Part shown: piece by piece, positions 28,805 to 52,420 of the stretch
Layout of the letters: each line of letters begins with the position of its first letter
How positions within the stretch are numbered: the stretch's first letter is position 1
Assembly: GCF_039566955.1 (NCBI RefSeq)
Contig: NZ_CP154796.1
Coordinates: forward strand, 5,828,001-5,892,000
Origin: Micromonospora sp. DSM 45708
GTDB taxonomy: Bacteria; Actinomycetota; Actinomycetes; Mycobacteriales; Micromonosporaceae
DNA length: 64,000 nucleotides
Direction: 5' to 3'
Notes under the pieces: model-generated
The model's database searches: none
What the model was told of the DNA's origin: nothing
The model's input: only the letters and a program-made list of their open reading frames with translations
Translations under genes and position numbers: made by a program

Positions 28805-28916
28805 GCCTCCCTATAGGTGGCAGCAAGGGCTGCGCCGTATCTGGGAGCCGCGCCTTTGCACAGCCTGCGATCAGCCAGGTCCCGACGGCCGCGCTCACCC
28901 CCCTCAAGGAGACTAG

Positions 28917-29540
28917 GTGACAACCACGCTCCCCGGCCTCAACGCTTCAGCGCAGACTGCGCCTTCCGGCGCCGACGCTTTCGATCAGCAGCAGGTCAGA
29001 CTGGCGGTGACACACCTGCTACAGGCCCTCGGCGTCCCTGGGGACTCCGAAGTCGCTCGCAACACCCCGCGGCGCGTGACCGATGCGCTAACGCAGTTGC
29101 TCACACCTGAGCCGTTGGCGTTCACGACGTTCTTGAACGACGATAGTCACCACGACCTGGTGCTGGTGCGGGAAATTCCGTTCACGTCGCTGTGCGCGCA
29201 TCACCTGTTGCCGTTCTATGGCCACGCGCATGTCGGCTTTTATCCAAAAGAGAGACTGCCTGGTCTATCGAAGATCGCCCGAGCGGTAGCGGCGTTCGCG
29301 GCTCGCTTGCAGATACAGGAGAGCCTAGGTCAGCAGGTCGCCACGTATCTGGAAACCCAGCTGGGCTGCGATGACGTCGGCGTGGTGCTCGTGGCCGAGC
29401 ACCTGTGCATGACACGCCGAGGAGCGCGTGCCGCGGGAACGAACGCAGTCACCATTGCCACCCGTGGTCGGTTGGCGCGCGACCAGGCGGTCCGAAGCGA
29501 GTTTCTCTGCCTCGCCATGCCGTCGGCTAGAGACTCATGA
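28917..29540 (+). CDS. folE: GTP cyclohydrolase I (FolE-type)
   Basis: 207 residues from a GTG with AAGGAG at good spacing. It converts GTP to 7,8-dihydroneopterin triphosphate, the first step to pterins and to 7-deazapurines. The zinc ligands are present: Cys and His in FTSLCAHHLLPFYGHAHVGF and the second Cys in AEHLCMTRRG. ERLPGLSKIARAVAAFAARLQIQE is also conserved. Length is normal. It is the first gene of a long plus-strand operon, and its stop overlaps the QueD ATG. As a second copy beside the housekeeping folE expected elsewhere, it is probably dedicated to this pathway. Confidence 0.95.
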   Translation: MTTTLPGLNASAQTAPSGADAFDQQQVRLAVTHLLQALGVPGDSEVARNTPRRVTDALTQLLTPEPLAFTTFLNDDSHHDLVLVREIPFTSLCAHHLLPFYGHAHVGFYPKERLPGLSKIARAVAAFAARLQIQESLGQQVATYLETQLGCDDVGVVLVAEHLCMTRRGARAAGTNAVTIATRGRLARDQAVRSEFLCLAMPSARDS

Positions 29541-29965
29541 CCCCGGCTCCGCCGGACTTCCCGGCACCGACCGCCCGTGGGCCAGGAATCCACCGGATCA
29601 CCAAATCGTTCAAGTTCGAGGCAGCGCATCTGCTCGGCGGCCTCCCCGAGGGGCACCAGTGCGCCCGCCTACACGGACACGGATACACGGTGGAGATCAC
29701 CCTCGCCGGCAGGCAGTTGACCGGTCCAGGCTTCGTGGTCGATTTCGCCGAGCTTCAGCCGCTGAAACGGCACCTCAATGACAACTTCGACCACCAGTTC
29801 CTGAACGAAATCCTGGGCGTGGAGCCAACCAGCGAGAACCTCGCCCGAGTGCTGTTCGAGTGGTGCGCGTCCCACCTTTCCCTGCCAGAAAGCGCGGACA
29901 TTGAGGCCGTGCGGGTGCACGAGACCACAACCAGTTGGGCGGAATACCGCGTCGACCTCTCCTGA
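29537..29965 (+). CDS. queD: 6-carboxy-5,6,7,8-tetrahydropterin synthase (QueD/PTPS family)
   Basis: 142 residues. It converts dihydroneopterin triphosphate to carboxytetrahydropterin in the preQ0 route. Visible: zinc His in FEAAHLLGG and LHGHGY, catalytic Cys in HQCARLHGHGYTVEITL, DFAELQPLKRHLNDNFDHQFLN with the catalytic His/Asp, PTSENLARVLFEW with Glu, and VRVHETTTSWAEY. The short Pro-rich N-terminus precedes the fold. Overlaps folE by 4 nt and lies 21 nt before queE. Confidence 0.94.
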   Translation: MTPAPPDFPAPTARGPGIHRITKSFKFEAAHLLGGLPEGHQCARLHGHGYTVEITLAGRQLTGPGFVVDFAELQPLKRHLNDNFDHQFLNEILGVEPTSENLARVLFEWCASHLSLPESADIEAVRVHETTTSWAEYRVDLS

Positions 29966-29986
29966 CTCCGGAGGGAACCACTCACC

Positions 29987-30820
29987 ATGTCTTCCGACAC
30001 CACGGCAACGGTCAACCAAACCGACGAGCGGGTCGCGGTCGCCGAGCTCTTCTACTCCTTCCAGGGAGAGGGAGTGAACCTCGGCCGACGCGCTCTGTTC
30101 GTCCGCCTCATGAGATGCAACTTGACCTGCGGATACCCGGTCCTTCCCCCAAAGGCGGACGCACCCACCGGCGGCGCGATGGTCTGCGACACCGAGTACA
30201 CCTGGAACGCCGCCAAGCACGACCTGCTGGCCGCGCCCACGATGAGTGCCGCCGAGATCTGGGACAAGCTGATCCGGCTGGATCCGGTCACCGGCTCACC
30301 ATGCCTCGGCGGTACCAACGGCATCACCGAGGCACCGGGCTTGACCCCGGTGGATCTGATCGTCGTCTCCGGCGGCGAACCGCTCCTGAACGCCGGCATC
30401 GTGACCGACCTCGCCCGACGCGCCGCAGCGACCGGCAGGGCTCTAGAGATCGAGACGAACGCAACCATCGCGCCGGGCGCCGATCTGATCGCCGCGGGAG
30501 CGCATTTCAACGCGGGCCTGAAGCTGGCAAGCTCCGCCGTGCCGTACAGCAAGCGGATCAAGCCCTCGGTCATCGAGCGGCTCCAGTCCAGCGGCCGGAC
30601 CCGGTGGAAGTTCGTGGTGACCGGTCCCGCCGACGTGCAAGAGATCGCTGATCTCCAGCGAAAGTTCGGCCTCACGGAGGTTTGGTTGTCCCCGGAAGGC
30701 ACCAGCACCGAGGTTGTCCTTGACCGGATGCGATGGCTGGCCGATGTCGCACTGACCCACGGGTGGAACCTCACCACGCGCCAGCACGTGCTGATCTGGG
30801 GTGACAAGCGTGGACGGTGA
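29987..30820 (+). CDS. queE: 7-carboxy-7-deazaguanine synthase (QueE), with an unusual cysteine-motif insertion
   Basis: 277 residues. A radical SAM enzyme that contracts carboxytetrahydropterin to 7-carboxy-7-deazaguanine. Family signs: LFYSFQGEGVNLGRRALFVRL, DTEYTWN and the SGGEPLLN glycine-rich SAM-binding motif. The cluster-binding cysteines are Cys44, Cys48 and Cys67: the usual C-x3-C-x2-C is stretched to C-x3-C-x18-C by a Pro-rich insertion between the second and third Cys. An insertion in this motif is known for some QueE proteins (Burkholderia, CX14CX2C), but at a different position. GGAGG precedes the ATG. Its end overlaps the phosphoribosyltransferase start. Confidence 0.9.
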   Translation: MSSDTTATVNQTDERVAVAELFYSFQGEGVNLGRRALFVRLMRCNLTCGYPVLPPKADAPTGGAMVCDTEYTWNAAKHDLLAAPTMSAAEIWDKLIRLDPVTGSPCLGGTNGITEAPGLTPVDLIVVSGGEPLLNAGIVTDLARRAAATGRALEIETNATIAPGADLIAAGAHFNAGLKLASSAVPYSKRIKPSVIERLQSSGRTRWKFVVTGPADVQEIADLQRKFGLTEVWLSPEGTSTEVVLDRMRWLADVALTHGWNLTTRQHVLIWGDKRGR

Positions 30821-31301
30821 CCGCGCCCTCACGACGCTCAGCTGGGATGGCGTCACCGCTACCGCTGCCCGCCTTGCGGACGCCGTCCGCACTGACCAGG
30901 TTCCCGATGTGCTGGTAGGCGTGCTGCGCGGTGGGGTCATCCCTGCCGTGCTACTCGCACACATCCTCGGCGTGCGGACGGTGCGGGCCGTAGAGGTGCT
31001 CCACACCACCGACGACAGCGTCAACGCGGCGAAGTCCGCCGCGCCCCTGGTCGACAACGCAGCGAGTTTGGGTGACCTGACCGGCGCGGATGTACTCGTC
31101 GTCGACGACATCGCCGGCAGCGGTGACACCGCGGCGCGCACCGTCGAGCTGGTGCGAAGTGCTGGTGCCGCCCGCGTTCGGACGGCGGTGCTCGTGGTCA
31201 ACCTCGGCAACTGGCGGCGGGCGCAGAGACCCGGGGAGTTGCTGACCTACATCGGAACCGTCGTCATCGGATGGGTGATCTTCCCATGGGAGAATTCGTG
31301 A
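30801..31301 (+). CDS. phosphoribosyltransferase (purine type)
   Basis: 166 residues; GTG at 30801 or 30810, both inside the end of queE. Type I PRTase core: LVGVLRGGVIPAVLLAHILGV, then the PRPP loop VLVVDDIAGSGDTAART. The C-terminal VIGWVIFPWE resembles xanthine/guanine PRTases (W.FPWE). It would attach ribose-5-phosphate to a base, here probably preQ0 or a deazaguanine, as proposed for ToyH in toyocamycin synthesis (analogy). It overlaps the radical SAM start in GTGA fashion. Confidence 0.88.
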   Translation: MTSVDGDRALTTLSWDGVTATAARLADAVRTDQVPDVLVGVLRGGVIPAVLLAHILGVRTVRAVEVLHTTDDSVNAAKSAAPLVDNAASLGDLTGADVLVVDDIAGSGDTAARTVELVRSAGAARVRTAVLVVNLGNWRRAQRPGELLTYIGTVVIGWVIFPWENS

Positions 31302-32431
31302 ACAGGGCGGCGCCCCCGGTCCCAGTGACACTCACACCGAGGACCACTCTGGGCGCCAGCGCTCCGGCCGTCGCGCAGCTCGGAGGGCAGACCGGGGCGA
31401 TGCACGGCGTGTCTCTGCTCTGGGCGCTGCGCTCACCATGCAACCTCGGATGCCGCTATTGCTACTTCGGCACCATCGAGGAGCACCGGCAGGCAATGCC
31501 GGCTCAGGCGGGGATGCTGTCGCACTTGGCGCGCACCGATCTGGAACTGGCGACCATAGCTGCTTTCGTGCAGACCCTGCCCGCATCGCGGGTCGAGCGG
31601 ATCTTCCTCGCCGGCGGTGAGCCGCTGATCTGGCCACCAATCATGGACGTGGTCGCCGGGATCAAGGCCGCGGGCGTCCAAGTGGTGCTGTGCACCAACG
31701 GCATCCCGCTCAACCGGCCTGAGGTCGTCGAAGCCATCCTCACCACCGGTGTCGACGCCGTATCCGTCTCGCTCGACTCCGCCGACCCCGACTACAACGA
31801 TCGTTGGCGCCCGGCCCGTAACGGCCAGCACGGCCACGGCGACGTCGTAGCCGGGATCCAAGCCCTGATCACCGCCCGCGGCGATGACCGGACTCCCCGC
31901 GTGGGCATTTACTCGGTGATCACGCGGCAGAACATCGACGCGGTCACCGAGACCGCGGCCTTGGCCGCTCGGCTGGGCTGCGACTACTTCGTGCCGCAGC
32001 CGATCGCCCTGGAGCCAGACCACGCGCTGCACCAGCAGCTGTCGCTCACGCCGACCGACGCCCACGATCTGGATGCGGCGTTCGCGCAGTTGTACGCCGC
32101 GCCGCCGGTGCAACTTCCCGCCCCCAGCTACCCGGGGCAAGTCGTCAAGGCGGTCACGGCTGAGCGTCCCGGCTTCGTGCGCTGCTGCTTCGGCGGTACC
32201 GATCTGTTCTTCATCGAGCCCGACGGCAGTGTCTGGGACTGCCCCTCGGGTTTGAAGATCCACGCCGATGCGGCGGGTAGCGCACGGCGTTCGATCCGCG
32301 GCGCGAGCGCCACCACGCTGTTCGGCCGCGGCGGCGGCTGCGCGGACTGCCATCTGTTCTCTGCCGATTGCGTCAACATGTGGCCGCTCATGGGCTTCGC
32401 CGAGTTCCTTCCCGAAGGTTCGCCGTCATGA
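31298..32431 (+). CDS. radical SAM protein with SPASM-like C-terminal cysteines
   Basis: 377 residues from the GTG at 31298, which overlaps the upstream TGA and has GGGAGA before it. Residues 48-55 hold the C-x3-C-x2-C cluster site (CNLGCRYCYF), with FLAGGEPL as the SAM glycine motif. The C-terminal part has further cysteines (RCCFGGTDLFFIEPDG, WDCPSG, CADCHLFSADC) as in SPASM/twitch auxiliary-cluster proteins. The next gene is a DegT aminotransferase; a radical SAM plus DegT pair also occurs in nucleoside antibiotic clusters such as blasticidin (BlsE/BlsH), where it edits the sugar. Substrate not known. Confidence 0.87.
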   Translation: MNRAAPPVPVTLTPRTTLGASAPAVAQLGGQTGAMHGVSLLWALRSPCNLGCRYCYFGTIEEHRQAMPAQAGMLSHLARTDLELATIAAFVQTLPASRVERIFLAGGEPLIWPPIMDVVAGIKAAGVQVVLCTNGIPLNRPEVVEAILTTGVDAVSVSLDSADPDYNDRWRPARNGQHGHGDVVAGIQALITARGDDRTPRVGIYSVITRQNIDAVTETAALAARLGCDYFVPQPIALEPDHALHQQLSLTPTDAHDLDAAFAQLYAAPPVQLPAPSYPGQVVKAVTAERPGFVRCCFGGTDLFFIEPDGSVWDCPSGLKIHADAAGSARRSIRGASATTLFGRGGGCADCHLFSADCVNMWPLMGFAEFLPEGSPS

Positions 32432-33573
32432 CGACCGATGGTCCGCAGCCCGCTGCGCCGCCCGGCACCGCCGGCATTGACCAAGCCATCGTCGCGGACC
32501 TCGCACGCCTGCTTGACCGGATGCCCGACTCGGCCGGGACCGTGCATGGCGCAGCCCTGGAACGGGAGCTGGCCGCAACAACCGGAGTGCGGCATGCGGT
32601 CGCAGTGTCCTCTGGTACCGCAGCCCTACACACCGCGCTGCGCGCGCTACGCATCGGCCCAGGCGACGACGTCCTCGTCCCAGCGCTGTCAGTGATCATG
32701 TCGGTCGCCTCGGTCATCCACGCCGGCGCCCGCCCGGTCTTCGTCGACTGTAACCGCGCCGGCACCGACCTCGACTACGACGACCTAGCCCGTAAGGTCA
32801 CGTCCTCCACCAAGGCGATCCTGCCCGTCTACCTCTGGGGCCGGCCCGCCGACCCGGCTCGGCTCGCCCGCGCAGGGCTTGAACACGGGGGCTTGGCCGT
32901 GGTGGAGGATGCCTGCCAAGCGCAGGGCAGCCGAGCCGGCGGTCGACTTGCCGGGACCGTGGGCGATGTCGGGTGCTTCAGCCTAAAAGACGGGAAGGTG
33001 CTCTGGGCGGGAGAGGGCGGCTACCTTCTCACCGACCGTGACGACGTTGCCTGGCGCGCGAGGTCTCTCCGCTCCCATATGCAGCCGCCACCACGTGAGG
33101 ACTGGCCGTCTGCTGAGGTCGGCTACAACTACCGGCTCGCCGAGCCGCTCGCGCTCATCGCCCGCGCCAACCTCGCCCGCTTCCACACGTCAGCCGCGCG
33201 CCGCCGCCACCAGGCCTGCCTGCTTGCCGACCTGCTGACCGGTACGCCCGGCATCAACGTGACTGACGTGCCGGCTCGACGGGGCTGGAATGGCTACAGC
33301 TTTCTGGCAACGGTGACCCTGGATCGACCTCGCGCGTTCTGCGAGCATCTTGCCCGCCGCGGAGTACCGAACAGCGTCGGCACGTTCGGTCTGATCCCCG
33401 CCGACCAACAGCCGTTATTCGCCGACTTCACCACCGCGCCCTGCCTCAATGCCGCCGCGGTCGTAGATCGAACTCTCGCCGTCGTCCTTACCGACCACGA
33501 CGATGAGGGGCGCATCGCGGCCTACGCAACGACGATCTCCCGAGAGGCTGCGCGGTGGCGGCACCACGCATGA
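32428..33573 (+). CDS. DegT/DnrJ/EryC1/StrS-type PLP aminotransferase
   Basis: 381 residues from the ATG overlapping the upstream stop. Family features: VAVSSGTAALHTALRAL (PLP phosphate), VPALSVIMSVASVIHAGARPVFVD, VEDACQAQGS (Asp contacting PLP), and the Schiff-base Lys190 in CFSLKDGKVLWAGEGG. GYNYRLAEPLALIARANL follows. It would aminate a keto-sugar, presumably made by the neighbouring sugar-phosphate enzymes. Length is normal. Confidence 0.92.
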   Translation: MTTDGPQPAAPPGTAGIDQAIVADLARLLDRMPDSAGTVHGAALERELAATTGVRHAVAVSSGTAALHTALRALRIGPGDDVLVPALSVIMSVASVIHAGARPVFVDCNRAGTDLDYDDLARKVTSSTKAILPVYLWGRPADPARLARAGLEHGGLAVVEDACQAQGSRAGGRLAGTVGDVGCFSLKDGKVLWAGEGGYLLTDRDDVAWRARSLRSHMQPPPREDWPSAEVGYNYRLAEPLALIARANLARFHTSAARRRHQACLLADLLTGTPGINVTDVPARRGWNGYSFLATVTLDRPRAFCEHLARRGVPNSVGTFGLIPADQQPLFADFTTAPCLNAAAVVDRTLAVVLTDHDDEGRIAAYATTISREAARWRHHA

Positions 33574-34733
33574 CCACAAGCGGGGTCCGGGACGGTGACA
33601 GGGTCGCAGTGGGGTGCGCCGAGGTTGCTGCCGCTCTCGACGGCTACCGCACCCGCAGTATCAGCGCAAGTCTGACGGCACAGGTCGGTGATCATCTCGA
33701 CGGCTGTCGCGCCTGCCGGCATGCTTGGAAGCGAGTCCGGTGGGATGCAGCCCGGGGCACCGACCTGTATGAGGAACTTGCTGCCTACCTCGGTGACGAC
33801 TTCGAGCCGTACTTCGACTCCTACCATGCCCTAGCGGTCGACTGGGAGAGGGCCAAGCCCGTCACCTCCGAGGACATCAGGCGGTTCTACCGCACGACGC
33901 CGGCGTACCTCTACAACCAAGTCATCTGGCATGCCAGCGGCGCCCGCCCGGACTACGTCATCGCAGCTCTGCCCATCCTGCGAGCGCACGGTGCGCCGGT
34001 CCTCAACTGGGGGTGCGGGATCGGCATCGACCTACTTCGGATACACCACGCCGGCCTCGACGTCTGGGGCTGCGACCTCCCTTCGTCACCCCAAGACTTC
34101 ATGCAATGGCGTGCCGCCCGAGGCGGGTATCCCCGCCCAATCCTGGATTCGGGCACCCAAGTCAGAGGCGCGAGTGTGCTTTGGACCATCGACACGCTCG
34201 ACAACCTTCGCGATCCCGAAGCCGAGCTCGGCAATCTGCTTGCATACGCCGACATTGTGATCAGCGAGCGGTACGAGGTGAATCAGCGGCGGAACCGCTG
34301 TGGTTTCCATTTCCGGCGCACCCCGAACGAAGTACAGCAACTCCTTGCCCGGCATGGCCTACATCCTCGCGAACAAACCGAAACGCCCGCGATCCTCTCG
34401 ACCTGGAACCGCGCAACGGCCAGCCGACCGCAGCCCTCACCACCTGAAACCGGCAGCGGTGCCGGCAATCCTCAGCCTCAGAAGACCCTCATCTCCGCGG
34501 CACGCCCTGGCCATCCGGCCGCACCGCGCCGCCCCCCACCAACGAGGAGTGACAGATGCGCAAGATTCTCCTCTTCTCCGCCGGCCTCGATTCCTTCCCA
34601 GCCTGGCACTACCTGGGCAAGCCCCCGGCCCTGTACTTCGATAGTGGGCATTACGGCCGGCAGCAAGAGATCGACACCGTGCGGGCGCTCGCCGCTACCC
34701 ATGGGATGGACCTGGAGGTCAGCAGCGAACTAG
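33570..34733 (+). CDS. methyltransferase-like protein with Cys-rich N-terminus, overrunning the next gene
   Basis: 388 residues from the ATG overlapping the upstream stop. The N-terminal part has DHLDGCRACRHAWKRV, resembling a zinc-binding anti-sigma-like segment. The middle has a SAM-type motif, VLNWGCGIGIDLLRIHHAGLDVWGCD, followed by SVLWTIDTLDNLRDPEAELGNLL. The C-terminal ~120 residues are Pro/Ser/Arg-rich and run 178 nt into queC, out of character for an operon with 4-nt overlaps. A different frame stops at 34550-34552, just before the queC ATG, so an indel may have extended this protein. Function as a methyltransferase is inferred from motif I only. Confidence 0.65.
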   Translation: MTTSGVRDGDRVAVGCAEVAAALDGYRTRSISASLTAQVGDHLDGCRACRHAWKRVRWDAARGTDLYEELAAYLGDDFEPYFDSYHALAVDWERAKPVTSEDIRRFYRTTPAYLYNQVIWHASGARPDYVIAALPILRAHGAPVLNWGCGIGIDLLRIHHAGLDVWGCDLPSSPQDFMQWRAARGGYPRPILDSGTQVRGASVLWTIDTLDNLRDPEAELGNLLAYADIVISERYEVNQRRNRCGFHFRRTPNEVQQLLARHGLHPREQTETPAILSTWNRATASRPQPSPPETGSGAGNPQPQKTLISAARPGHPAAPRRPPPTRSDRCARFSSSPPASIPSQPGTTWASPRPCTSIVGITAGSKRSTPCGRSPLPMGWTWRSAAN

Positions 34734-35332
34734 ACCTGTCCAGCCGGGCCACCCCGCAGGGGGATCTCATCCCGTTCCGAAACGTGCTGTTCGCGATGCT
34801 CGCAAGCTTCCGCGCCGAGGTGATCTGGTGTGTCGGTGTCAAAGGCGACCACACGGCCGACAAGAGCCCTGAGGCCTTCGCACGAATGAGCGAGATGCTC
34901 TCCGCTTTCGCGGACCGGCCGATCCGTGTCGACAGCCCCTTCTGGGACATGACGAAGACGGACGTCGTCGCCTGGTACCTCAGTTCCGGCCTGCCCGTCA
35001 ACGACTTGTTGCAGACGTTCTCCTGTGCGACACCCGGTGCCGCCTTGGTGCACTGCGGTCAATGTCCGAGCTGCCTGCGCCGGTGGATCGCCCTGACCAA
35101 CAACGGCGTCAACGGGCGCTTTGCCTCTTCACCGTGGACCTGGGAGCGCATTCGCACCCACTACCTGCCGGCGATGGCCAGCGGCCAGTACCCGCCACAC
35201 CGCGCCCAGGAGTTCCACCGCGCCATGGCCACCGTCGGACTGCTCCCCGAGCTGCCGTCGTCAGTGAACGCACCTCAACCGCCAGCTGATGCCGCCGGCA
35301 TCACCGACACCACGCACCGGGAGCAGCAATGA
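34556..35332 (+). CDS. QueC-like 7-cyano-7-deazaguanine synthase
   Basis: 258 residues. N-terminal PP-loop LLFSAGLDSF binds ATP; GVKGDHTADKSPEAFARM and TKTDVVAWYL follow. A zinc site CATPGAALVHCGQCPSCLRR matches QueC. QueC turns 7-carboxy-7-deazaguanine into preQ0 using ammonia and ATP. It is divergent from standard QueC (SAGLDS rather than SGGLDS), so it could act on a modified substrate. The C-terminal tail contains a perfect 17-bp DNA palindrome. GAGGAG lies 5 nt before the ATG; its stop overlaps the next gene. Confidence 0.83.
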   Translation: MRKILLFSAGLDSFPAWHYLGKPPALYFDSGHYGRQQEIDTVRALAATHGMDLEVSSELDLSSRATPQGDLIPFRNVLFAMLASFRAEVIWCVGVKGDHTADKSPEAFARMSEMLSAFADRPIRVDSPFWDMTKTDVVAWYLSSGLPVNDLLQTFSCATPGAALVHCGQCPSCLRRWIALTNNGVNGRFASSPWTWERIRTHYLPAMASGQYPPHRAQEFHRAMATVGLLPELPSSVNAPQPPADAAGITDTTHREQQ

Positions 35333-36156
35333 AAGTCCCCGCCATGCGGTACGCCGCGAACCTGTCGATCCTCTACGGTCACCTGCCCCTGCTGGCGCGG
35401 CCGGCTGCTGCGGCGGCCGACGGCTTCCACGCCGTCGAGTGCTGGTGGCCGTTTACCAGTCACATGCCCGGCGATCGGGAGGTCGACGCCTACGAGAACG
35501 CGCTCGACGACGCCGGAGTATGTCTGATCGCAATGAACCTCGTGGAAGGTGACATGCGGGGCGGCGACCGCGGGCTGCTGTCAAGCCCCCGTCACCAAGA
35601 GGTCTTCCGGGCGGGGCTCGACACCGCCATCGACTTCGCGGCCCGCACCGGCTGCCGGATCCTCAACGCGCTCTACGGCAACCGGGAACCAGGCGTCGAC
35701 CCCGCGCATCAGGACCAGCTCGCCCTCGACAGCCTCGCCGCCGCAGCCACGGCGGCAGACGCGATCGGCGCCACGATCGTGCTGGAGGCCATCAGCCGTA
35801 GGGAGGCTCCGAACTACCCCCTCGCCGATGCAGACGCCGCCGTGGCGACCGCCGATACGGTCAATGCCCTCACCGGCCTGACCAACACCGGCTTCCTGTG
35901 CGACCTCTACCACCACGGCCGCTCCGGTGAAGACGTACCCGCGCTGCTGCGTCGGCATGCGGCTCGCATCGTCCACGTGCAAGTGGCCGATGACCCGGGC
36001 CGCGGCCGCCCTGGATCTGGCGTCCTGCATTACCCGGGCTACCTCGCTGCTCTTCAGGAGATCGGCTACCAGGGCTGGATCGGGCTGGAGTACGAGCCGA
36101 CCCGAAACCCAGCCGTCGACTACGACTGGATACCGATGGGAGGGCCCACTCGATGA
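35329..36156 (+). CDS. hydroxypyruvate-isomerase-like TIM-barrel isomerase
   Basis: 275 residues, 4-nt overlaps on both sides. Xylose-isomerase-like fold: NLSILYGHLPLLARPAAAAADGFHAVECWWPF, a metal-binding Glu in TIVLEAISRREAPNYPL, GFLCDLYHHGRSGED (Asp, His), VHVQVADDPGRGRPGSGVLHY and the second Glu in WIGLEYEPTRNP. This order fits hydroxypyruvate isomerase (Hyi). In a sugar-nucleotide context it may isomerise a different aldose/ketose or 3-carbon unit. Confidence 0.88.
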   Translation: MKVPAMRYAANLSILYGHLPLLARPAAAAADGFHAVECWWPFTSHMPGDREVDAYENALDDAGVCLIAMNLVEGDMRGGDRGLLSSPRHQEVFRAGLDTAIDFAARTGCRILNALYGNREPGVDPAHQDQLALDSLAAAATAADAIGATIVLEAISRREAPNYPLADADAAVATADTVNALTGLTNTGFLCDLYHHGRSGEDVPALLRRHAARIVHVQVADDPGRGRPGSGVLHYPGYLAALQEIGYQGWIGLEYEPTRNPAVDYDWIPMGGPTR

Positions 36157-36932: not shown

Positions 36933-37651
36933 TCATGGCGTCCTGGCTCGATGCGCTCCCGCGCGACCGGCTGCTGCTGGATGTGTCCCTATGGTCGGCT
37001 AACCTGGCCGCGCTCGGCGCTGAGGCGGCCCGGATCAGCCCACACGCGGATCTGCTGCACATCGACGCCTCCGACACCCACTTCGTGCCGGAGCCGCTGT
37101 TCTTCCCCGATCTCGTGCGCGCGGTCCGTCCGCACACCGCCCGACCGCTGCACGTGCACCTGATGGCGCACCGACCGGCCCGACTCGCGTGCGCGTTCGC
37201 CGACGCTGGCGCGGACCTGATCACCGTGCACGCGGAAGCCACAGGCGCGGCCGACGCCGTACGAGCGATCCACGACGCTGGACGGCCTGCGGGCATCGCG
37301 CTGACGCTCGACACCGACCCTGCCGACGTTCGCGGGTTGCTCGCAGAGGCCGACGCGATCGTCCTGATCGGCACTCCCCTTGGCACCAAAGGCACCACCA
37401 TGCAGCCCACTGTCCTCGCCAAAATCACCGCGGCGCGGCGGCTGCTCGATGCTGAGCAGCGGATGGTTCCGATCATCGCCGACGGCGGCATCCGCCAGGA
37501 CACCGTCGCGTCGGTGGCCGCTGCCGGCGCCAACGGTGTCGTCCCCGGATCCCTGCTCTGGGCCAGCCATGACCTGCTCAGCACCGCCGCGTGGATCCGC
37601 ACCCACCGACCGATGACGCCGGCATCATCCGAAAGGCAGACCCCACGATGA
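36929..37651 (+). CDS. ribulose-phosphate 3-epimerase-like protein
   Basis: 240 residues. LLLDVSLWSANLAALGAEAARI (Ser of the active site), ADLLHIDASDTHFVPE (catalytic Asp, His), PLHVHLMAHRP (His ligand), DLITVHAEA, and IIADGGIRQDTV with the second Asp and phosphate-binding GGI give the RPE pattern. It would epimerise a ketopentose 5-phosphate. The pathway-specific copy suggests the pentose unit is built or remodelled here. The 3' end carries an imperfect DNA palindrome. Confidence 0.9.
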   Translation: MIMASWLDALPRDRLLLDVSLWSANLAALGAEAARISPHADLLHIDASDTHFVPEPLFFPDLVRAVRPHTARPLHVHLMAHRPARLACAFADAGADLITVHAEATGAADAVRAIHDAGRPAGIALTLDTDPADVRGLLAEADAIVLIGTPLGTKGTTMQPTVLAKITAARRLLDAEQRMVPIIADGGIRQDTVASVAAAGANGVVPGSLLWASHDLLSTAAWIRTHRPMTPASSERQTPR

Positions 37652-38412
37652 CCACCGGACAAGATCTCTCGGGATGGACGGTCAGCCTCGACTTGTGGGG
37701 CACTCTGATAGAGCACAGCGACCAGGCCGCCGTGACAGACTGGCGAGTGGCCGAGTTCGGCCAAGTTCTGGCCGCGTTCGACCAGGACAGACCCGCCTCC
37801 CAGATCCGCCAGGCAGTGACTTCCGTCGACCGCCTCGCTCTTCACCAACAGCGCCACGAAGGGACGCAGCCCACCACCACGAAGCTGCTCGCCGAGATCC
37901 TCAACTCGCTCGCCGTCCAAGAGACGCCGGAGATGCTGCAGGTCCTCGACGTCGTGCACACCCACGCGAGCCTGCGCGGATGCCCACGCCATATCGACGG
38001 CGCGCAGGACACGCTACGGGCGCTCGCCAGAACGGGTGCGCGACTCGTGCTGACCTCGAACACGCTGTCGACCTCGCCCCTGGTTCACCGACAGCTGCTC
38101 GATAGCCTTGAGCTGTCGCCGTTCTTCGCCGACATGATGTTCAGTGGTGATCTCGGTGTCGCGAAGCCCAGACGCGAGGTATTCCTCAGGGTCGCGGAAC
38201 GCGCGCACACCACGCCGGACCGGGTGATCCACGTCGGTGACGATTGGCTCACCGACGTCCGAGGCGCATTGGGCGCCGGCTGCCAGGCCGTCTACTACCG
38301 GCAGGCTGGTCGTCCAGCCCGACCCGGCGTCCTCAGCATTATCGCGCTCGACCAGATGGTGAACGCGGTGCTCGCCGCCCGCCACGCCGCCCTGGCCCCG
38401 GAATCCCGATGA
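37648..38412 (+). CDS. HAD-superfamily phosphatase
   Basis: 254 residues from the ATG overlapping the upstream stop. Motif I is SLDLWGTLIEH, with Asp and a Trp in place of the usual Phe/Tyr; motif II LVLTSNT; motif III Lys in GVAKPRREVF; motif IV HVGDDWLTDV. A helical cap separates motifs I and II. It probably removes phosphate from a sugar or nucleotide intermediate. Confidence 0.88.
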   Translation: MTTGQDLSGWTVSLDLWGTLIEHSDQAAVTDWRVAEFGQVLAAFDQDRPASQIRQAVTSVDRLALHQQRHEGTQPTTTKLLAEILNSLAVQETPEMLQVLDVVHTHASLRGCPRHIDGAQDTLRALARTGARLVLTSNTLSTSPLVHRQLLDSLELSPFFADMMFSGDLGVAKPRREVFLRVAERAHTTPDRVIHVGDDWLTDVRGALGAGCQAVYYRQAGRPARPGVLSIIALDQMVNAVLAARHAALAPESR

Positions 38413-39215
38413 CCACCACCGCAGCGGCTGCCACCTCGACCGCACCGCCCGCGCGCCGAGGTAGCGCGAGCTTCCGCCTGTCCGACCTGATTGCCCGCCA
38501 TCACCACGGTCGGAACACCGTCTTCGTCAGCGACGCCGTGCTTGGCCAACGGGGAACCGGGGACGATCCGGTGCTTTACACCGCCCACCGCGACTATCTG
38601 CCGTGCCGGCGTTTACTCGACACCGACTGGTTCGCCGACCTGGTCGAGTACCAGCCCGGCGTGCTTTCCGGCGGGGAGCTGCACCGCTCGACCGGGCACT
38701 GGAACACCCCGACCCAGCTGGAGGTCTTCCAGACCCTCACCGGCCGCACGCTGATGATCACCGCCTGGCGGACCGCCGACGGCCGGCAGACCCTGCGCTA
38801 TCAGGAGTGCCCCGCGGGGTCCCTAGCGGCGATCCCGTTCGGCGGTTGGCACCTCACCCTGGTGCTCGACGGCCCGGCGGCAGTTGTGAACTTCTACACC
38901 GACCTACCCACCACAAGGCACCCGGCCGTCAAACGGGAAGATGCCAACGCGGACAAGTACCGCCGCGCGCCGGCAGTAGAGGTCACCGCCATCCTCACTC
39001 AAGACGGCTACCAGCTCGCTGGGCCCGGACTCGCCGCTTGGGGGCCCGCCCAAAAGACCACGGAGCCAGCCTGGCTGCGTCGTGCCCTCCACGGCGCAAA
39101 TCTTGCGGACTTCTACCGCAAAGGAGACCGATCGAAGCTCGCCAGCCTCATCGGGCATGCGCGTCGCCGGCTGCCCGCGCACTCACCGCTTCACCTCGTC
39201 ACGGAGAACCGATGA
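38409..39215 (+). CDS. cupin-like protein (glucose-6-phosphate-isomerase-like)
   Basis: 268 residues, 4-nt overlaps on both sides. The centre has a beta-rich pattern with paired motifs: VLSGGELHRSTGHWNTPTQLEVFQTLTGR, then PFGGWHLTLVLDGPAAVVNFYTD. His and Glu spacing suggests a single-domain cupin metal site. Fold assignment is by eye. Such proteins epimerise or isomerise sugars or act as small oxygenases; which applies here is unknown. The C-terminal ~90 residues are helical and basic. Confidence 0.62.
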   Translation: MTTTAAAATSTAPPARRGSASFRLSDLIARHHHGRNTVFVSDAVLGQRGTGDDPVLYTAHRDYLPCRRLLDTDWFADLVEYQPGVLSGGELHRSTGHWNTPTQLEVFQTLTGRTLMITAWRTADGRQTLRYQECPAGSLAAIPFGGWHLTLVLDGPAAVVNFYTDLPTTRHPAVKREDANADKYRRAPAVEVTAILTQDGYQLAGPGLAAWGPAQKTTEPAWLRRALHGANLADFYRKGDRSKLASLIGHARRRLPAHSPLHLVTENR

Positions 39216-40333
39216 CCAGCCTCACGCCTGCCGGCCCGGTCACGCTCGACGCCAACAGCGTCGCCGCAACGTTCCGGTGCGGCGACGCTAGCGTCACGCT
39301 TCACTCCGACGCGCGTGCGCTGGCCGAGGCGCAGCGGGTGCTCTACTCCTACGAGGTCCAACCGGCCGGGCCCGCGACGTGGAACATCCACCTGAGCCTT
39401 GAGCGCGACGTCGAGTTCACCCCGGCAGCCAAGTCCGGAGGGATGGGCTTCGACATCGGCCCCCAGAGCTACGCCTACCAGCAGGGGGAATGGCCGGTAC
39501 GCGTCTTCTGGGTGCCCGACCGAGGCACGCTGCTGCGTACCAGTCAGGCGACAAGGATCATCAATGTCTGGTGCGCCACGGCGGAGGCGGCCGGCCTGTG
39601 GGCGCCGCGACTGGTGCGGCAGGCCATGACCGCGCAGCTGCTGACTGCGGGCGTGGTCTACGCCCACGCCGCGGCGTACATCGTGCGCGGTCGGGGCATC
39701 CTGGTCGCCGGGCACCGTGGACGCGGGAAGACGACCACCCTGCTGGCCGGGCTGCACTACCTCGGCGGCGACTACGTGACCAACGACCGGCTGATGTTGC
39801 ACGCCCAGGACAGCGGCCTGCACGGATACCCCTGGCCGATGCCGTTGCGCGCGGGGATCGGCACGCTAGCCGCCCTACCTCACCTGCGCCACCGGGTCCC
39901 CGCTGATCAGCGAGCGCTGACGACGGACGACAAGTGGGCCTTCCCGAACAAGGTCGCCATCGAGCCGGAAGAATTTTCCACCCTCCTGAACCACGGAGGG
40001 AAGGTCGCCCGTCAGATGACACCGTCACTGATGATCTGGCCACACCTTGACCCCCACCGCGCCGACGTCAGCGTCGAGCGTGTCGATGCCGGCGAGGTGC
40101 ACCAGACGCTGCTCGATACCCGCATGTTCATGCACGACCCCGAGCGCGGCACAAGCGCGCACATCAATCAATGGCTTGTGCCCGGCCCGACCGACGACGT
40201 TACCGAGGCTCACCTACGACGCACCGCCGCCGCATTGGCCCTGCTGCCCTGCTACCGCATCCACGCCGGCGCGGACCCGGCCGCCCTGGTCGCTGCTGTC
40301 GATGGCCTCCTCAACGCTGGAGAGCTCCGATGA
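39212..40333 (+). CDS. HprK-like P-loop kinase
   Basis: 373 residues. Walker A at 167-175 (GHRGRGKTT) within HAAAYIVRGRGILVAGHRGRGKTTTLLAGLHYLGGDYVTNDRLML, the layout of HPr-kinase/phosphorylase-like domains. A beta-rich N-terminal domain (about 1-140) precedes it. HprK-like kinases paired with NTP_transf_5 nucleotidyltransferases occur in some lasso-peptide clusters (ThcoK-type), where the kinase phosphorylates a terminal Ser. Here no lasso genes are visible, so the substrate is probably a small molecule or carrier. 4-nt overlap with the nucleotidyltransferase gene. Confidence 0.82.
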   Translation: MTSLTPAGPVTLDANSVAATFRCGDASVTLHSDARALAEAQRVLYSYEVQPAGPATWNIHLSLERDVEFTPAAKSGGMGFDIGPQSYAYQQGEWPVRVFWVPDRGTLLRTSQATRIINVWCATAEAAGLWAPRLVRQAMTAQLLTAGVVYAHAAAYIVRGRGILVAGHRGRGKTTTLLAGLHYLGGDYVTNDRLMLHAQDSGLHGYPWPMPLRAGIGTLAALPHLRHRVPADQRALTTDDKWAFPNKVAIEPEEFSTLLNHGGKVARQMTPSLMIWPHLDPHRADVSVERVDAGEVHQTLLDTRMFMHDPERGTSAHINQWLVPGPTDDVTEAHLRRTAAALALLPCYRIHAGADPAALVAAVDGLLNAGELR

Positions 40334-41253
40334 CCGACGCCCCCGCCAGCTTCTTCCCCGACACCACCGGCCACCCACGGGTATACCGGCTGCTGCGCGC
40401 CGCCTGCGAACCGACTGGTACCGCAACCAATGTCGATGCTAGGGACCTCCCACCATTCGGTGAGGTGTTGGAGCACGCCATCACCGCCAAGATGCTCTGC
40501 CTCTTGACCGACTGGCTCGACCGACACGGCCACACGGTAAGCCTGACGCGGCCGATGCAGCAGTTCCTACGCGGACAAAGGCGGCTCAACACCCACCGCT
40601 GGCGAACCCACCACCGCGAAGCGGCCCGCGTCATCACCATCCTGGCCGGCTGCGGCGTCAAGGCCGCCGCAATAAACGGGATCGCCCACGCGACCTTGCT
40701 CTACCGCGCTGATGGATCCCGCCAGTCCAGCGACGTCGACATCCTCATCCCCGCCGAGGCTGCCGACGTCGCCGTGAACGCCCTGACCAATTGCGGCTAC
40801 TACGCCACCGGGCGCCGACCCACCGCGCTGCACCGAGACTTCGACGACCCCTTGATCCCCGGCCTCACCCTCGACCTGAGCGCACGCCTCGCGCACACGG
40901 GCGACCCTGCCCACATAGCCTCCGTCCTCAACCGCCGCACACCTGCGCCGCAACACTATGCCCACCTTGAGCCGCTGCCGATCCTCAGCCACGACGACGG
41001 CTTCCTCCACACCCTGGCCCGCGTCGCCGCTCAGCGCCGCTGGCCAGCGCTGGCCGATGCGCTCCGCTACAGCGCCCACTCCCCCACGCCGCCGCCCCCC
41101 GTTGCCGTGGTACCCGACGCCGCCCTGACCGGATGGCACCTGCTGCGCTCGTGTTGGCCCCAGCTGCCCGAACGGCCGCCCCTGTCCAACGGCGGAGAGG
41201 GTGATGCCGCCAGCATCACCACCCGCCCGCCGGAGACCGGAGGTCGCCCGTGA
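40330..41253 (+). CDS. nucleotidyltransferase (NTP_transf_5-like)
   Basis: 307 residues. The catalytic motif is SRQSSDVDILIPAEAA (133-140 core) after AAAINGIAHATLLY. An upstream helical domain and a C-terminal helical domain (HDDGFLHTLARVAAQRRWPALADALRY) are typical. It probably transfers an NMP to the product, as partner of the HprK-like kinase. The extreme C-terminus carries another DNA palindrome (41200-41220) and looks appended. Confidence 0.83.
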   Translation: MTDAPASFFPDTTGHPRVYRLLRAACEPTGTATNVDARDLPPFGEVLEHAITAKMLCLLTDWLDRHGHTVSLTRPMQQFLRGQRRLNTHRWRTHHREAARVITILAGCGVKAAAINGIAHATLLYRADGSRQSSDVDILIPAEAADVAVNALTNCGYYATGRRPTALHRDFDDPLIPGLTLDLSARLAHTGDPAHIASVLNRRTPAPQHYAHLEPLPILSHDDGFLHTLARVAAQRRWPALADALRYSAHSPTPPPPVAVVPDAALTGWHLLRSCWPQLPERPPLSNGGEGDAASITTRPPETGGRP

Positions 41254-41810
41254 TCGTGCAGATGGCCGGTCTGCCCGGCACCGGCAAAAGCTCCCTGGCC
41301 GCTGCACTGCACACGCGCCTCGGCCAGGGCTGCTTGGTGCTCGACAAAGACCGCGTCCGGGCCGCGTTCTACGAAGCCAGCGGGCACGTCACCTACAGCC
41401 GGGACCAGGACGACTTCGTCATCTCACTGCTGCACCAGGCGGCCCGGGAGCACCTGACTCGGTACCCAGATGCGACGGTGATCCTTGAGCGCACCTGCAC
41501 TCGCAGCTACCAGATCGGCGATGTCGTTCGCCTCGCGGCTGGATTACAACAGCCTTTGGCGATCATCAGGTGCTGGTGCCCGGCTCCGATTGCGCGGGCC
41601 CGCCTCGCCGCCGACCGGCAGCACGACCGACACCCAGCTTCCGACCGCGACTTCGCCCTCTACCAACGGCTGCACGCCACCGCCGACCGGATCGACGCCC
41701 CAGCGCTGCATCTGCGCACCGATGCGCCACCGGCACGAATTCTCACTGCCGCCATCGCCTACCTCCACGACATATCCGCAGCGTCCACCCCCGTAGGAGC
41801 CACCCGATGA
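41250..41810 (+). CDS. small P-loop kinase (AAA_33/zeta-like)
   Basis: 186 residues from a GTG overlapping the upstream stop. Walker A GLPGTGKS at 7-14, then LVLDKDRVRAAFYEA, ATVILERTCTRSYQ and LAIIRCWCPAPIARARLAADRQHDRHPAS as a lid. The pattern fits sugar, nucleoside or antibiotic kinases of the chloramphenicol-phosphotransferase type. Substrate unknown; either tailoring or self-protection. Confidence 0.8.
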   Translation: MIVQMAGLPGTGKSSLAAALHTRLGQGCLVLDKDRVRAAFYEASGHVTYSRDQDDFVISLLHQAAREHLTRYPDATVILERTCTRSYQIGDVVRLAAGLQQPLAIIRCWCPAPIARARLAADRQHDRHPASDRDFALYQRLHATADRIDAPALHLRTDAPPARILTAAIAYLHDISAASTPVGATR

Positions 41811-42628
41811 CCGACATCGGTCCTCTGCTCGACATCGCGCTTGACGCCGTGCGCCGCAGTGCCCAACGCCTGACAACCCAGACCGTCCAAAAGGTCATCC
41901 CCAAGGGCAACCGCGACGTGGCCACCGACCTCGACCACACCATCGAACGCGAGATCCTCACATTCCTGGCCGACCGCACACCCCACATCGACCGCTTCGG
42001 CGAGGAATCCGGCGGCAAGCCCGCCACGCCGCACCGATGGGTCCTGGACCCGGTCGACGGCACTTTCAACCTCGTGCACGGCCTGCCGCTCTACGGCATC
42101 TCCCTGGCGCTGACCGACGGCATCCGACCCATGCTCGGCGTGATCGGCCTCCCCGCGCTCGGCCGCACTTACTGGGGAGCGCCCGGCCTCGGTGCCTGGC
42201 GCGACGGGACCCCGATCACCCCATCCAGCACGACCGACGTCGGCGAATCGATGATCGCGATCGGTGACTACGGCACAGGCGACGACGCCCCGGCACGCAA
42301 CGCCGTCGCTGTGGCCCTGCACGCCGCGCTCGCGCCGGTCGCAGGAAAGGTCCGCATGCTCGGCAGTGCGGCTGTCGACCTCACCCTCGTAGCGGACGGA
42401 ACCCTCGGCGCCAGCGTCACACTGGGCAACCGCGACTGGGACATGGCCGCTGGCGTTGCCATCGCCCGCGCGGCGGGCGCGGCTGTCACTGACACCGACG
42501 GCAGCCCTCACGACAGCAAGTCACTGACCACGATCGCCACGGCACCAGGGCTCACCGACTCAATGCTGACCATCCTGGCCACCGCAGCCACCGGAACTCG
42601 ATACGACAGGAGAGCGGCCGCGTGCTGA
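41807..42628 (+). CDS. inositol-monophosphatase-family phosphatase
   Basis: 273 residues from the ATG overlapping the upstream stop. Mg-binding Glu in FGEESGGKPATPHR, the signature WVLDPVDGTFNLVHGLPLYG, and WDMAAGVAIARAAGAAVTD at the C-terminal end. All catalytic acids are present. It hydrolyses a sugar or nucleotide monophosphate, Mg-dependent and Li-sensitive as a family trait. Overlaps the next gene by 7 nt. Confidence 0.92.
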   Translation: MTDIGPLLDIALDAVRRSAQRLTTQTVQKVIPKGNRDVATDLDHTIEREILTFLADRTPHIDRFGEESGGKPATPHRWVLDPVDGTFNLVHGLPLYGISLALTDGIRPMLGVIGLPALGRTYWGAPGLGAWRDGTPITPSSTTDVGESMIAIGDYGTGDDAPARNAVAVALHAALAPVAGKVRMLGSAAVDLTLVADGTLGASVTLGNRDWDMAAGVAIARAAGAAVTDTDGSPHDSKSLTTIATAPGLTDSMLTILATAATGTRYDRRAAAC

Positions 42629-43320
42629 TCGCCTTCGAGGGCCTGCCCGGCGCCGGCAAGACCACCCAATCCCGCGCCCTCGCCGCCCACCTGTCCGAGC
42701 GTGGAACCACCGTCACATACCTGCCCGACAACCTCACGCGCGCCGCCGAACCGCTCGGACAGGCCCTGCTGGCCCTGTTCGACTCCGGTGACCCATTCTC
42801 ACGGCACGACAGCGTGCTCACCGACACCTACCTCGCGGCCGCGATCCGGATCGACACCTACGCCACCCACATCGCCAGCGCGCTCGCCTCCGGCATCGTC
42901 ATCGAAGACCGGGGCCTGCACACCCTCTACTCCTACAGCCTCGCCTCGCTGGTGCAGAAACACCGAACCCCACCTGACGAGGCGATCGCCTGGATCCTGG
43001 AGGTCGGCACGTTCGCCGGCCCGGCCGCCACTAGATCGGTATGGCTGCGGCTTCCCCCCGACGAGGCCATCGCCCGCGCCGAGCGACGGCAGGGCCGTCC
43101 GTACACCGCCGAGCAACGGGCCTTCCTCCGCTGCGCCCACGACGCATACGCTGCCCTCGCCGAGAACAACCCTGACCTGCATGCAATCAATGTCAGCGGA
43201 CTCACCACGGACGAGACGCAGCGGGCGGTACTCGCCGCCGTCACCGACCTGATTTCGCCGCCCTCGGCCTGTCCGCCATCCGGCGACGATGCAAGCCGCG
43301 TCATGCGCCTCGGGGCATAG
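42622..43320 (+). CDS. thymidylate-kinase-like kinase (2)
   Basis: 232 residues from a GTG. Walker A in IAFEGLPGAGKTTQSRALAAHL (7-14), then IVIEDRGLHTLYSYSL as the DR motif and RAERRQGRPYTAEQRAFL as the lid. Closer to genuine dTMP kinases than the protein at 36153-36932. It is the last gene in the tightly overlapping series; a 62-nt gap follows. Confidence 0.85.
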   Translation: MLIAFEGLPGAGKTTQSRALAAHLSERGTTVTYLPDNLTRAAEPLGQALLALFDSGDPFSRHDSVLTDTYLAAAIRIDTYATHIASALASGIVIEDRGLHTLYSYSLASLVQKHRTPPDEAIAWILEVGTFAGPAATRSVWLRLPPDEAIARAERRQGRPYTAEQRAFLRCAHDAYAALAENNPDLHAINVSGLTTDETQRAVLAAVTDLISPPSACPPSGDDASRVMRLGA

Positions 43321-43382
43321 CCCCAGCACTACCGTCGATCTCTATAGTCCGATCCGTTCCATCGAGCTGGAGTCCGTACGCC

Positions 43383-44333
43383 ATGACTGTGCCGCTCATC
43401 GACGTTCCCCCCGCCGCTTTGCTCGCCGAGCTCCGTCGCGTGCGCGCCAGCGCCGGGGACCGAGACGCAGCCCTGTCGGCGCTGGGTCTGCGCCCCCTCA
43501 CCGGCGGGATGCAGAACGACATCTATCTGTGGACATCTCCGCACGACGACGGCGAGGCGGTCATCAAGCTATACGTCAAGACCGACCGGCATCGCGTCGA
43601 GCGAGAGTGGGCAGCCCTGACCCTGCTCGCCCCCCACCACCTCCATACCGTGCCCGCTCCGCTGTGGCGTGATGCCAAGCCGATCGAGCCCGCGATCGGC
43701 ATGACCCGCCTTCATGGACGGCCGATGATCAAAGCGGCAGACCAGCTGGCCGCCCTGCGCGCCCTCGCGGGCACCACCAGAAGACTCCAGGCGGTGCCCC
43801 TGACCGGTCTGCTTGCCGAATTGCCACGAGTCGACTCCGGCGAGCACTACATGATCCGCCTGACTCAGACTTGGCCCGACCTGCTGGCCAACCAGCCCAA
43901 CGACCCGCTGACCCCCGCTATGCAGCACTTGCTGGAGGTCTGGCGGCGCAGTGGCGACGCCGACCTGGTCACCGCTCAGGCCGCACCGGTGCTGTCCCGC
44001 GGCGACTCGAACTTACTCAACTGGATGGTGACCGACGACTGTGCCGCGTGCGTTGACTTCGAGTACGCCGGCTACAGCAACGTCGACTTCGACGCCGCCG
44101 ACCTCATCGAGCACATCTCCGGCCGCGCCGTCCCGGACTGCATCTGGGTGCAACTCCTGCCAGACCTCGGGATCACCGGCGTCAACCGTCGCCGCTTCGC
44201 CGCGAATCAGCGAACTTGCGCTCTACGGTGGCTGGCGGTGCTGTGGAAGCAGCGCGACCGTCGCCGTGAGGAGTTCACCGCTCAACACGAGCGGGTCGAG
44301 ATGCTTCACAGCAGCGACAACCCCTACGCCTGA
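43383..44333 (+). CDS. APH-like phosphotransferase (2)
   Basis: 316 residues. ATP-binding Lys in EAVIKLYVKTDRHRVEREW, catalytic SRGDSNLLNWMV and metal-binding CVDFEYAGYSNVDFDAADL identify the kinase-like APH fold. It may be a self-resistance kinase or phosphorylate an intermediate. Converges with the glycosyltransferase gene (23-nt gap). Confidence 0.86.
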   Translation: MTVPLIDVPPAALLAELRRVRASAGDRDAALSALGLRPLTGGMQNDIYLWTSPHDDGEAVIKLYVKTDRHRVEREWAALTLLAPHHLHTVPAPLWRDAKPIEPAIGMTRLHGRPMIKAADQLAALRALAGTTRRLQAVPLTGLLAELPRVDSGEHYMIRLTQTWPDLLANQPNDPLTPAMQHLLEVWRRSGDADLVTAQAAPVLSRGDSNLLNWMVTDDCAACVDFEYAGYSNVDFDAADLIEHISGRAVPDCIWVQLLPDLGITGVNRRRFAANQRTCALRWLAVLWKQRDRRREEFTAQHERVEMLHSSDNPYA

Positions 44334-45433: not shown

Positions 45434-45578
45434 GTATCCTCCGTCGGAGCACAACCGCCCTCTCGGCGTATGGAGTAAATGCCGGGGCAAGTGGCTCTGT
45501 GATTGATTGACAAAGACTACGACACGAACCCTATGAGACACAACCAAGAACGTCGCGCGGATTGCACGGAGGTCAGTC
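45434..45578. promoter_or_regulatory. divergent promoter region
   Basis: 145 bp between the divergent glycosyltransferase and HAD genes, noticeably richer in A/T than its neighbours. It must carry promoters for both, but I cannot assign boxes with confidence. Confidence 0.4.
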
Positions 45579-52415: not shown

Positions 52416-52420
52416 CCACT

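Follow-up and report, generated by a model that had tools for sequence, protein, structure and literature searches.

A candidate gene cluster for a 7-deazaguanine-derived natural product in Micromonospora, built from two modules that are also found separately

Nineteen open reading frames (ORFs) lie head to tail on the plus strand at positions 28917-44333 of the stretch studied here, a 64,000-nt window from the single-contig, 7.0 Mb genome of Micromonospora sp. DSM 45708 (NZ_CP154796.1). An initial annotation made from the bare sequence had described them as an almost gapless operon with mostly 4-nt overlaps that joins a complete preQ0 (7-cyano-7-deazaguanine) pathway to sugar and kinase enzymes. 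The layout is as it described: the genes are co-directional, 17 of the 18 junctions have gaps of at most 21 nt, and 11 are overlaps of exactly 4 nt. The only junction outside this limit is the 62-nt gap before aph; the overlap of mtase and queC is 178 nt, a size that hinges on the true end of mtase, and some start codons, such as that of degT at 32428, were chosen by us. Pfam and NCBIfam searches recovered every gene family that had been named, several of them below the NCBIfam cut-offs, namely FolE, QueD, QueE, a phosphoribosyltransferase (PRTase), radical S-adenosylmethionine (SAM), DegT, QueC, Hyi-like, RPE-like, HAD and HprK-like proteins, together with two thymidylate-kinase-like proteins, NTP_transf_5, AAA_33, IMPase and APH. 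The Pfam scan gave no match for the mtase ORF, the ORF at 38409-39215 and an over-long version of the HprK frame.

The genes at the start of the run point to the synthesis of 7-carboxy-7-deazaguanine (CDG). Both folE, encoding GTP cyclohydrolase I (28917-29540; PF01227, 170.4 bits; NF006826, 175.5 against a cut-off of 162), and queD, encoding 6-carboxytetrahydropterin synthase (29537-29965; TIGR03367, 96.9 against 89.25), pass curated cut-offs. The CDG synthase gene queE (29987-30820) is a clear homologue that falls below them (TIGR03963, 58 bits; TIGR03365, 50 bits over residues 15-276; PDB 4njg at 4e-8). With all three present together, their predicted joint production of CDG is well supported; two further FolE proteins are encoded elsewhere in the genome. 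They are followed by prt, a purine-type PRTase (30801-31301; PF00156, 68.8 bits), a radical SAM enzyme with SPASM-like C-terminal cysteines in an alignment of 10 relatives (31271-32431; PF04055, 75.4 bits), degT, an aminotransferase of the DegT/DnrJ/EryC1/StrS family (32428-33573; PF01041, 227.1 bits), and mtase (33555-34733), a probable SAM methyltransferase recognized by eye from a WGCGIG motif.

The claim of a complete preQ0 pathway is left unestablished by the QueC homologue (34556-35332; PF06508, 50.3 bits), which scores 30 bits against TIGR00364 where 150.3 are required. According to Libby et al. (PMC13329287), the Y35A, R99A, Y131A and Y189A mutants of E. coli QueC are inactive, and three of these four residues are missing here, one of the three as judged by eye. 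When the window protein and six cluster relatives are aligned with the E. coli enzyme, at about 30% identity and with single columns correspondingly uncertain, R99 is retained as an invariant arginine (R75) and the Asp of YPDC as D102. All seven have S, I or L at the position of Y35 and a gap at Y131; the Y189 position holds A, S or F once the Zn cysteines, the first of which MAFFT leaves unaligned, are anchored by eye. Six of the eight cluster proteins compared have SAGLDS as their P-loop; L010 has SGG there and L006 GGG. The QueC signatures SGGxDS, YxQxHxxE and YPDC are not kept and no Tyr follows the first Zn cysteine; the RN of VPxRN, PF(x)4K and CxxCxxC are retained. At E <= 0.01 the only PDB sequence match is Cap9 (9nto, 4e-7), which, according to PMC13279940, joins CDG to a protein N-terminus. 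The genome has no other PF06508 match. We consider the protein a divergent member of the QueC family, probably an ATP-dependent enzyme acting on CDG, for which a nitrile, a primary amide or a larger amide are all possible products.

The remaining genes encode putative sugar, phosphate and nucleotidyl enzymes. A hydroxypyruvate/2-oxo-tetronate isomerase-like TIM barrel, hyi (35329-36156; TIGR03234, 252 against a cut-off of 353.45), is followed by the thymidylate-kinase-like P-loop kinase tmk1 (36153-36932; PF02223, 34.6 bits), the ketose-phosphate 3-epimerase-like rpe (36929-37651; PF00834, 133.6 bits; TIGR01163, 132.7, and the AlsE model NF007266, 92.4, both below cut-off) and the HAD phosphatase gene had (37648-38412; PF00702, 52.1 bits). 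The ORF at 38409-39215 is predicted to encode a cupin-type phosphoglucose isomerase (cPGI): its product has the cPGI fold, and H97, N99, E105 and H148 are invariant in 40 homologues, for which Pfam gave weak matches only (Cupin_2 in five, Cupin_1 in four, and four chance families in one or two each). Beyond it lie hprK (39212-40333; TIGR04355, 41.7 bits), whose product has the fold of the HprK/PEPCK kinase superfamily with a P-loop, GHRGRGKTT (AF2 pLDDT 92.9; PEPCK and HprK/P chains matched), the nucleotidyltransferase gene ntp5 (40330-41253; PF14907, 60.7 bits), aaa33 for a small P-loop kinase-like protein (41250-41810; PF13671, 59.9 bits), impase for an inositol-monophosphatase-type phosphatase (41807-42628; PF00459, 156.8 bits), a second thymidylate-kinase-like gene, tmk2 (42622-43320; PF02223, 50 bits), and aph for an aminoglycoside-phosphotransferase-like kinase (43383-44333; PF01636, 59.3 bits). 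The HprK P-loop pattern recurs in 12 of 13 relatives and a SLKDGK-type motif of DegT in 11 of 12; other motif patterns missed some relatives (for example, tmk2 found in 11 of 17 hits and queD in 4 of 15), partly because the hits were partial or paralogous.

Comparison with related loci showed that the conserved unit is both smaller and larger than the 19 genes. By tblastn, 18 of them, all but mtase, keep an identical order in every one of the five other Micromonospora loci spanning the set (L035, L036, L038, L039, L040), which chance does not explain; mtase, found in L038 only, was rejected as a conserved part and is better regarded as optional. DNA shared with these relatives begins at 28879-28881 (L035, L036, L038) or, in the more distant L039 and L040, at 29025-29060. 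It ends at 46256-46257 in L036, L037, L039 and L040, at 46060 in L035, near its contig end, and at 45784 in L038. The conserved locus therefore does not stop at 44333, as had been assumed, but reaches about 46373 and includes a GT4 glycosyltransferase gene (44357-45721, minus strand; PF00534, 53.8 bits) and a third HAD phosphatase gene (45579-46373, plus strand; YjjG-type HAD models). The former adjoins aph in all six further Micromonospora loci that reach so far (L035-L040) and in Streptosporangium L043; its strand is that of the operon in L039 and L040 and the opposite one in the window and the other four. The conserved start of the latter, at 45579, is ATG in L036 and ATC in the window, where no ATG, GTG or TTG precedes the catalytic motif; a GGAGG-like site precedes the ATC.

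Pairwise dN/dS values from Nei-Gojobori counts, with synonymous differences per site of up to 0.67, are 0.12-0.42 over 21 genes against L038 (mtase included, at 0.31) and 0.15-0.35 over 20 genes, without mtase, against L036; the operon genes are under purifying selection. Split frames occur in the radical SAM gene of L039 (5585-6602), the mtase of L038 (6826-7703) and the hyi of L035 (9919-10736), reflecting either sequencing error or decay. Relatives of the radical SAM enzyme (E <= 1e-40) were found in 7 of 160 genomes of the genus, its own included. The same seven carry nearly full-length hprK relatives of at least 58% identity, the other 15 of the 22 genomes positive for hprK at E <= 1e-3 having weak, partial matches only. 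In a class-wide sample, QueC relatives (E <= 1e-20) appeared in 2 of 394 genomes, again counting its own. Among plasmids, the radical SAM enzyme has relatives in 40 records (12 covering at least 80% of the query), HprK in 17 (7 covering) and QueC in 8 (7 covering); the annotation of these records was inspected for part of the matches. Because it is present or absent as a whole, and in few species, the cluster looks horizontally spread.

A tblastn map of 23 loci, read within the stretches available for each, resolves the cluster into two modules, a make-up that the initial annotation had overlooked along with the cupin isomerase, the glycosyltransferase, the third HAD and the divergent upstream gene described below. 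Module A comprises QueD, QueE, FolE, PRTase, radical SAM and DegT, and module B runs from the QueC-like protein to APH; each also occurs alone. The map has some redundancy (L004/L035 are one genome, L012/L043 one plasmid and L013/L046 another), and four loci were not counted as architecture types: L007 and L037 (contig ends), L042 (short) and Pseudonocardia L009 (in which module B starts at the TIM-barrel gene). Module A stands alone on plasmids throughout (L012 of Streptosporangium, L014 of M. zamorensis, L015 of S. alboflavus and L016 of Streptomyces FR1), in the order queD, queE, folE, prt, TMK-like, radical SAM, DegT, TMK-like. These stretches also encode an exonuclease, a DsbA-like protein and a ligase resembling SAICAR synthetase, and they contain no QueC. 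The PRTases of these clusters are 53-55% identical to that of the window in L012, L015 and L016 and 34% in L014. Module B stands alone in L006, L008, L010, L043 and L044, in the order queD, queE, tmk1, queC, nucleoside deoxyribosyltransferase, TIM barrel, rpe, had, cupin, hprK, ntp5, aaa33, impase, tmk2, aph, with no radical SAM or DegT in the stretch. Hybrids of both are the window, its five complete Micromonospora relatives and the Streptomyces plasmids L013/L046, L017 and L045. On these plasmids the radical SAM and DegT genes come after aph, and the cluster has an additional adenylation-carrier protein (families examined on L045); hyi is present in hybrids only. One Streptosporangium plasmid carries the two modules as separate clusters, at 59.4-71.4 kb (B, L043:7420-19394) and 84.6-95 kb (A, L012:11918-22249). 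On a proteobacterial plasmid (L047:10673-12621) a nucleoside-deoxyribosyltransferase gene adjoins a distant QueC homologue, like the corresponding pair of the B-only clusters.

Unrooted gene trees split the hybrids from the A-only loci in the radical SAM (100/100) and degT (100/99) families and from the B-only loci in queC (100/99). Their simplest reading, which falls short of proof, is a single fusion of modules A and B. Several features of the trees weigh on the other side: those of hprK and prt are unresolved, support in rpe is 86/90, in the prt tree row SFR1, of the A-only type, joins the Streptomyces hybrids (82/90), and the radical SAM tree is flagged with a long-branch warning.

Taken together, these observations make it fairly probable that this gene cluster directs the biosynthesis of a 7-deazaguanine natural product of the amino-nucleoside or rare-sugar type. 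The sugar-modified, phosphorylated 7-deazaguanine product proposed in the initial annotation is still the best reading of the gene content. FolE, QueD and QueE would convert GTP to CDG, and the PRTase would join CDG to phosphoribosyl pyrophosphate, giving a nucleotide. Radical SAM and DegT form an adjacent pair in the operon, comparable in family to BtrN and BtrS, a radical SAM dehydrogenase and a DegT enzyme by which an alcohol is oxidized and then transaminated; here the former may oxidize a sugar hydroxyl to a ketone that the latter aminates. The PDB relatives of DegT are mostly sugar or cyclitol aminotransferases of several kinds, which does not fix its substrate. The QueC-like enzyme may activate the 7-carboxylate with ATP, leading to an amide or nitrile. 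The cupin isomerase and the RPE-like epimerase suggest a rare hexose, and with the Hyi-like protein could produce a rare aldose phosphate, for example by way of fructose-6-phosphate, allulose-6-phosphate and allose-6-phosphate; in the biosynthesis of angustmycin, a PRTase-family transferase works in concert with an AlsE-like epimerase (PMC8599513). Kinases and the NTP_transf_5 protein might activate the rare sugar for attachment by the GT4 enzyme, the HAD and IMPase phosphatases would strip phosphates, and the HprK-like, AAA_33, TMK-like and APH-like proteins may phosphorylate pathway intermediates or hold the product in an inactive form within the cell. The families of these enzymes are observed; what we propose for every substrate after CDG, for the order of steps and for the product is inferred from them.

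The substrate of the PRTase bears directly on the choice between this scheme and a classical preQ0 nucleoside pathway of the toyocamycin type, in which QueC would make preQ0, the PRTase the preQ0 nucleotide, and the other genes would decorate it. All four gene families needed are present, and the QueC-like protein keeps the motifs listed above. However, its lack of three residues reported as essential in E. coli QueC, the occurrence of PRTase relatives on plasmids without a QueC match and the absence of any GMP-reductase-like match among the 19 genes make this pathway rather unlikely. The plasmids of L014, L015 and L016 are not among the eight plasmid records with a QueC match, a count that covers plasmids and not the chromosomes of their hosts. 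The tubercidin PRTase TubE is CDG-specific and makes the CDG ribonucleotide, according to PMC6112128. For these two reasons CDG is more likely than preQ0 as the substrate. Ordinary queuosine precursor synthesis, which the initial annotation had set against its own view, would also account for FolE, QueD, QueE and a QueC homologue. The genome has no match to tRNA-guanine transglycosylase (TGT) in a search positive in 14 of 14 control genomes, nor to QueA in one positive in 9 of 14. Queuosine is therefore unlikely, membership in its pathway was rejected, and with the cluster in only 7 of 160 genomes of the genus we regard this explanation as very improbable.

Two further proposals concern the QueC-like protein. 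It might join the CDG carboxylate to the amine of a pathway intermediate, in hybrids one made by radical SAM and DegT, to yield an amide-linked deazaguanine amino-sugar conjugate. To our knowledge there is no natural-product example of such a linkage. We hold this conjugate, its DegT-derived amine included, to be doubtful. Improbable to a slightly greater degree is a role in defence or in modification of nucleic acids or nucleotide pools, with deazaguanine nucleotides made by the TMK-like enzymes protecting or marking DNA, or with Cap9-like protein modification. Besides the Cap9 match, the QueC-like protein matches the PADLOC QueC (60 bits), the radical SAM enzyme matches pVip in part (71 bits, residues 50-223), and B-only clusters include a nucleoside deoxyribosyltransferase. 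Against it stand the numerous sugar enzymes, the lack of any TGT-family match across the genome (in a search that a divergent DpdA might evade), the lack of PADLOC matches at E <= 1e-3 for hprK, ntp5, queE and aaa33, and the lack of a CD-NTase Pfam match among the 19 genes, QatB not having been searched for.

Several observations count against the biosynthetic cluster that we favour. Some of the surroundings speak for the defence role instead: at 0.6-8 kb downstream of the locus are an integrase and LmuA/LmuB defence genes, and on the L014 plasmid cas7c lies upstream of the A module. None of the 21 genes matched a transporter. The B-only clusters have the QueC-like gene and no aminotransferase in the stretch, so the amine made by DegT is not its general partner. 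The RPE-like protein scores higher on the pentose than on the hexose model, and both it and QueE remain below curated cut-offs. The metal ligands of cPGI are H, H, E and H, and the cupin protein seems to have N where the second His would be expected. The radical SAM and hyi frames are split in L039 and L035, respectively. Finally, at E <= 1e-4 in blastp the protein of the divergent upstream gene does not match the regulators of relatives or the upstream ORFs of other Micromonospora.

This upstream gene (26407-28566, minus strand), a putative regulator, encodes a fusion of an NsdA-family TPR protein (NF053720, 143.5 bits, cut-off 75) with a RibD-type deaminase domain (TIGR00326, 163.2 bits, cut-off 156.35). 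Of five plasmid loci examined, four (L012, L015, L045, L046) have at the same divergent position a gene scoring above the NsdA-family cut-off; in the fifth, L016, the gene there matches peptide deformylase and not NsdA. The only blastp match of the window protein is a second NsdA-family gene in the window, which lies with a helix-turn-helix gene and a creatininase gene between two DDE_5 transposase genes in inverted orientation and with identical profile scores (17248-18621, plus; 23503-24876, minus). Rfam at gathering thresholds reported only a tRNA (5428-5500) in the whole window; a riboswitch of the preQ1 type, or any other RNA close to the operon, was not among its matches. About 300 bp from this tRNA-Arg, a 43-bp stretch (5807-5849) is 98% identical to L039:19879-19921, downstream of the L039 cluster, and is possibly a recombination remnant. 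Directly downstream of the window cluster, all on the plus strand, are a phage-type integrase gene (46953-48515), an ATP-dependent DNA ligase gene (49392-50462) and a defence operon of LmuA, an ABC-three-component middle component and LmuB (DUF3732) at 50698-54400; an AAA_21 gene with PtuA/AriA-like matches follows at 54749-56125.

If the reading as a 7-deazaguanine cluster is correct, Micromonospora, Streptomyces, Streptosporangium and Pseudonocardiaceae harbour a family of such pathways, so far unexplored, in their genomes and on plasmids. This family would include a branch of QueC and a family of cupin isomerases, both unassigned, as well as a radical SAM/DegT pair that likely installs an amine. 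It offers concrete enzymes and a module map for testing how amino and rare-hexose groups are introduced into deazaguanine nucleosides, and suggests how clusters of this kind are recombined. Our search of the open literature found no account of the cluster, which does not prove it unpublished.

Among known systems, lasso-peptide clusters have HprK-related kinase and nucleotidyltransferase genes, and adjacent HprK-like and NTP_transf_5 genes occur here too, whereas the 19 gave no match to any gene family of lasso-peptide clusters. Cap9 of type IV CBASS (cyclic-oligonucleotide-based antiphage signalling; PMC13329287, PMC13279940) is likewise a QueC-family protein acting on CDG; in contrast to it, the present homologue has lost the YxDC motif, no CD-NTase was matched, and the operon is rich in sugar enzymes. 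The angustmycin cluster (PMC8599513) similarly unites a ketose-phosphate 3-epimerase, a PRTase-family transferase and a HAD phosphatase in one nucleoside pathway, but its base is adenine and not deazaguanine. An AgmC-type ribose-phosphate-pyrophosphokinase above cut-off is absent from the 19, the PRTase giving weak partial matches to such models. Closer are the 7-deazapurine clusters. The tubercidin cluster tub of Streptomyces tubercidicus (PMC6112128) shares FolE, QueD, QueE and a PRTase; in contrast to tub, no UbiD decarboxylase or GMP-reductase-like gene was matched here, and radical SAM, DegT, QueC-like, rare-sugar and kinase genes are additional. In the toyocamycin/sangivamycin and huimycin clusters, preQ0/CDG genes are joined by a PRTase in the case of toyocamycin and by a glycosyltransferase in that of huimycin, and their accounts (PMC7439116, PMC12648386) list a 7-cyano-7-deazaguanine synthase, ToyM or HuiB. 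Here QueC is divergent, as judged against the E. coli enzyme, and there are amino-sugar and hexose-phosphate genes in addition. The toyocamycin-type set of FolE, QueD and QueE is present, whereas by its sequence signatures a canonical preQ0-forming QueC is not. The initial annotation correctly reported neither a GMP-reductase-like nor a nitrile hydratase gene: none was matched above cut-off among the 19 genes, three frames being without any Pfam match, and the RPE-like protein has an IMPDH match that stays under its cut-off (23.2 bits, cut-off 25.6). On these likenesses and differences, the Micromonospora cluster looks like an uncharacterised variant among the known 7-deazapurine nucleoside clusters.

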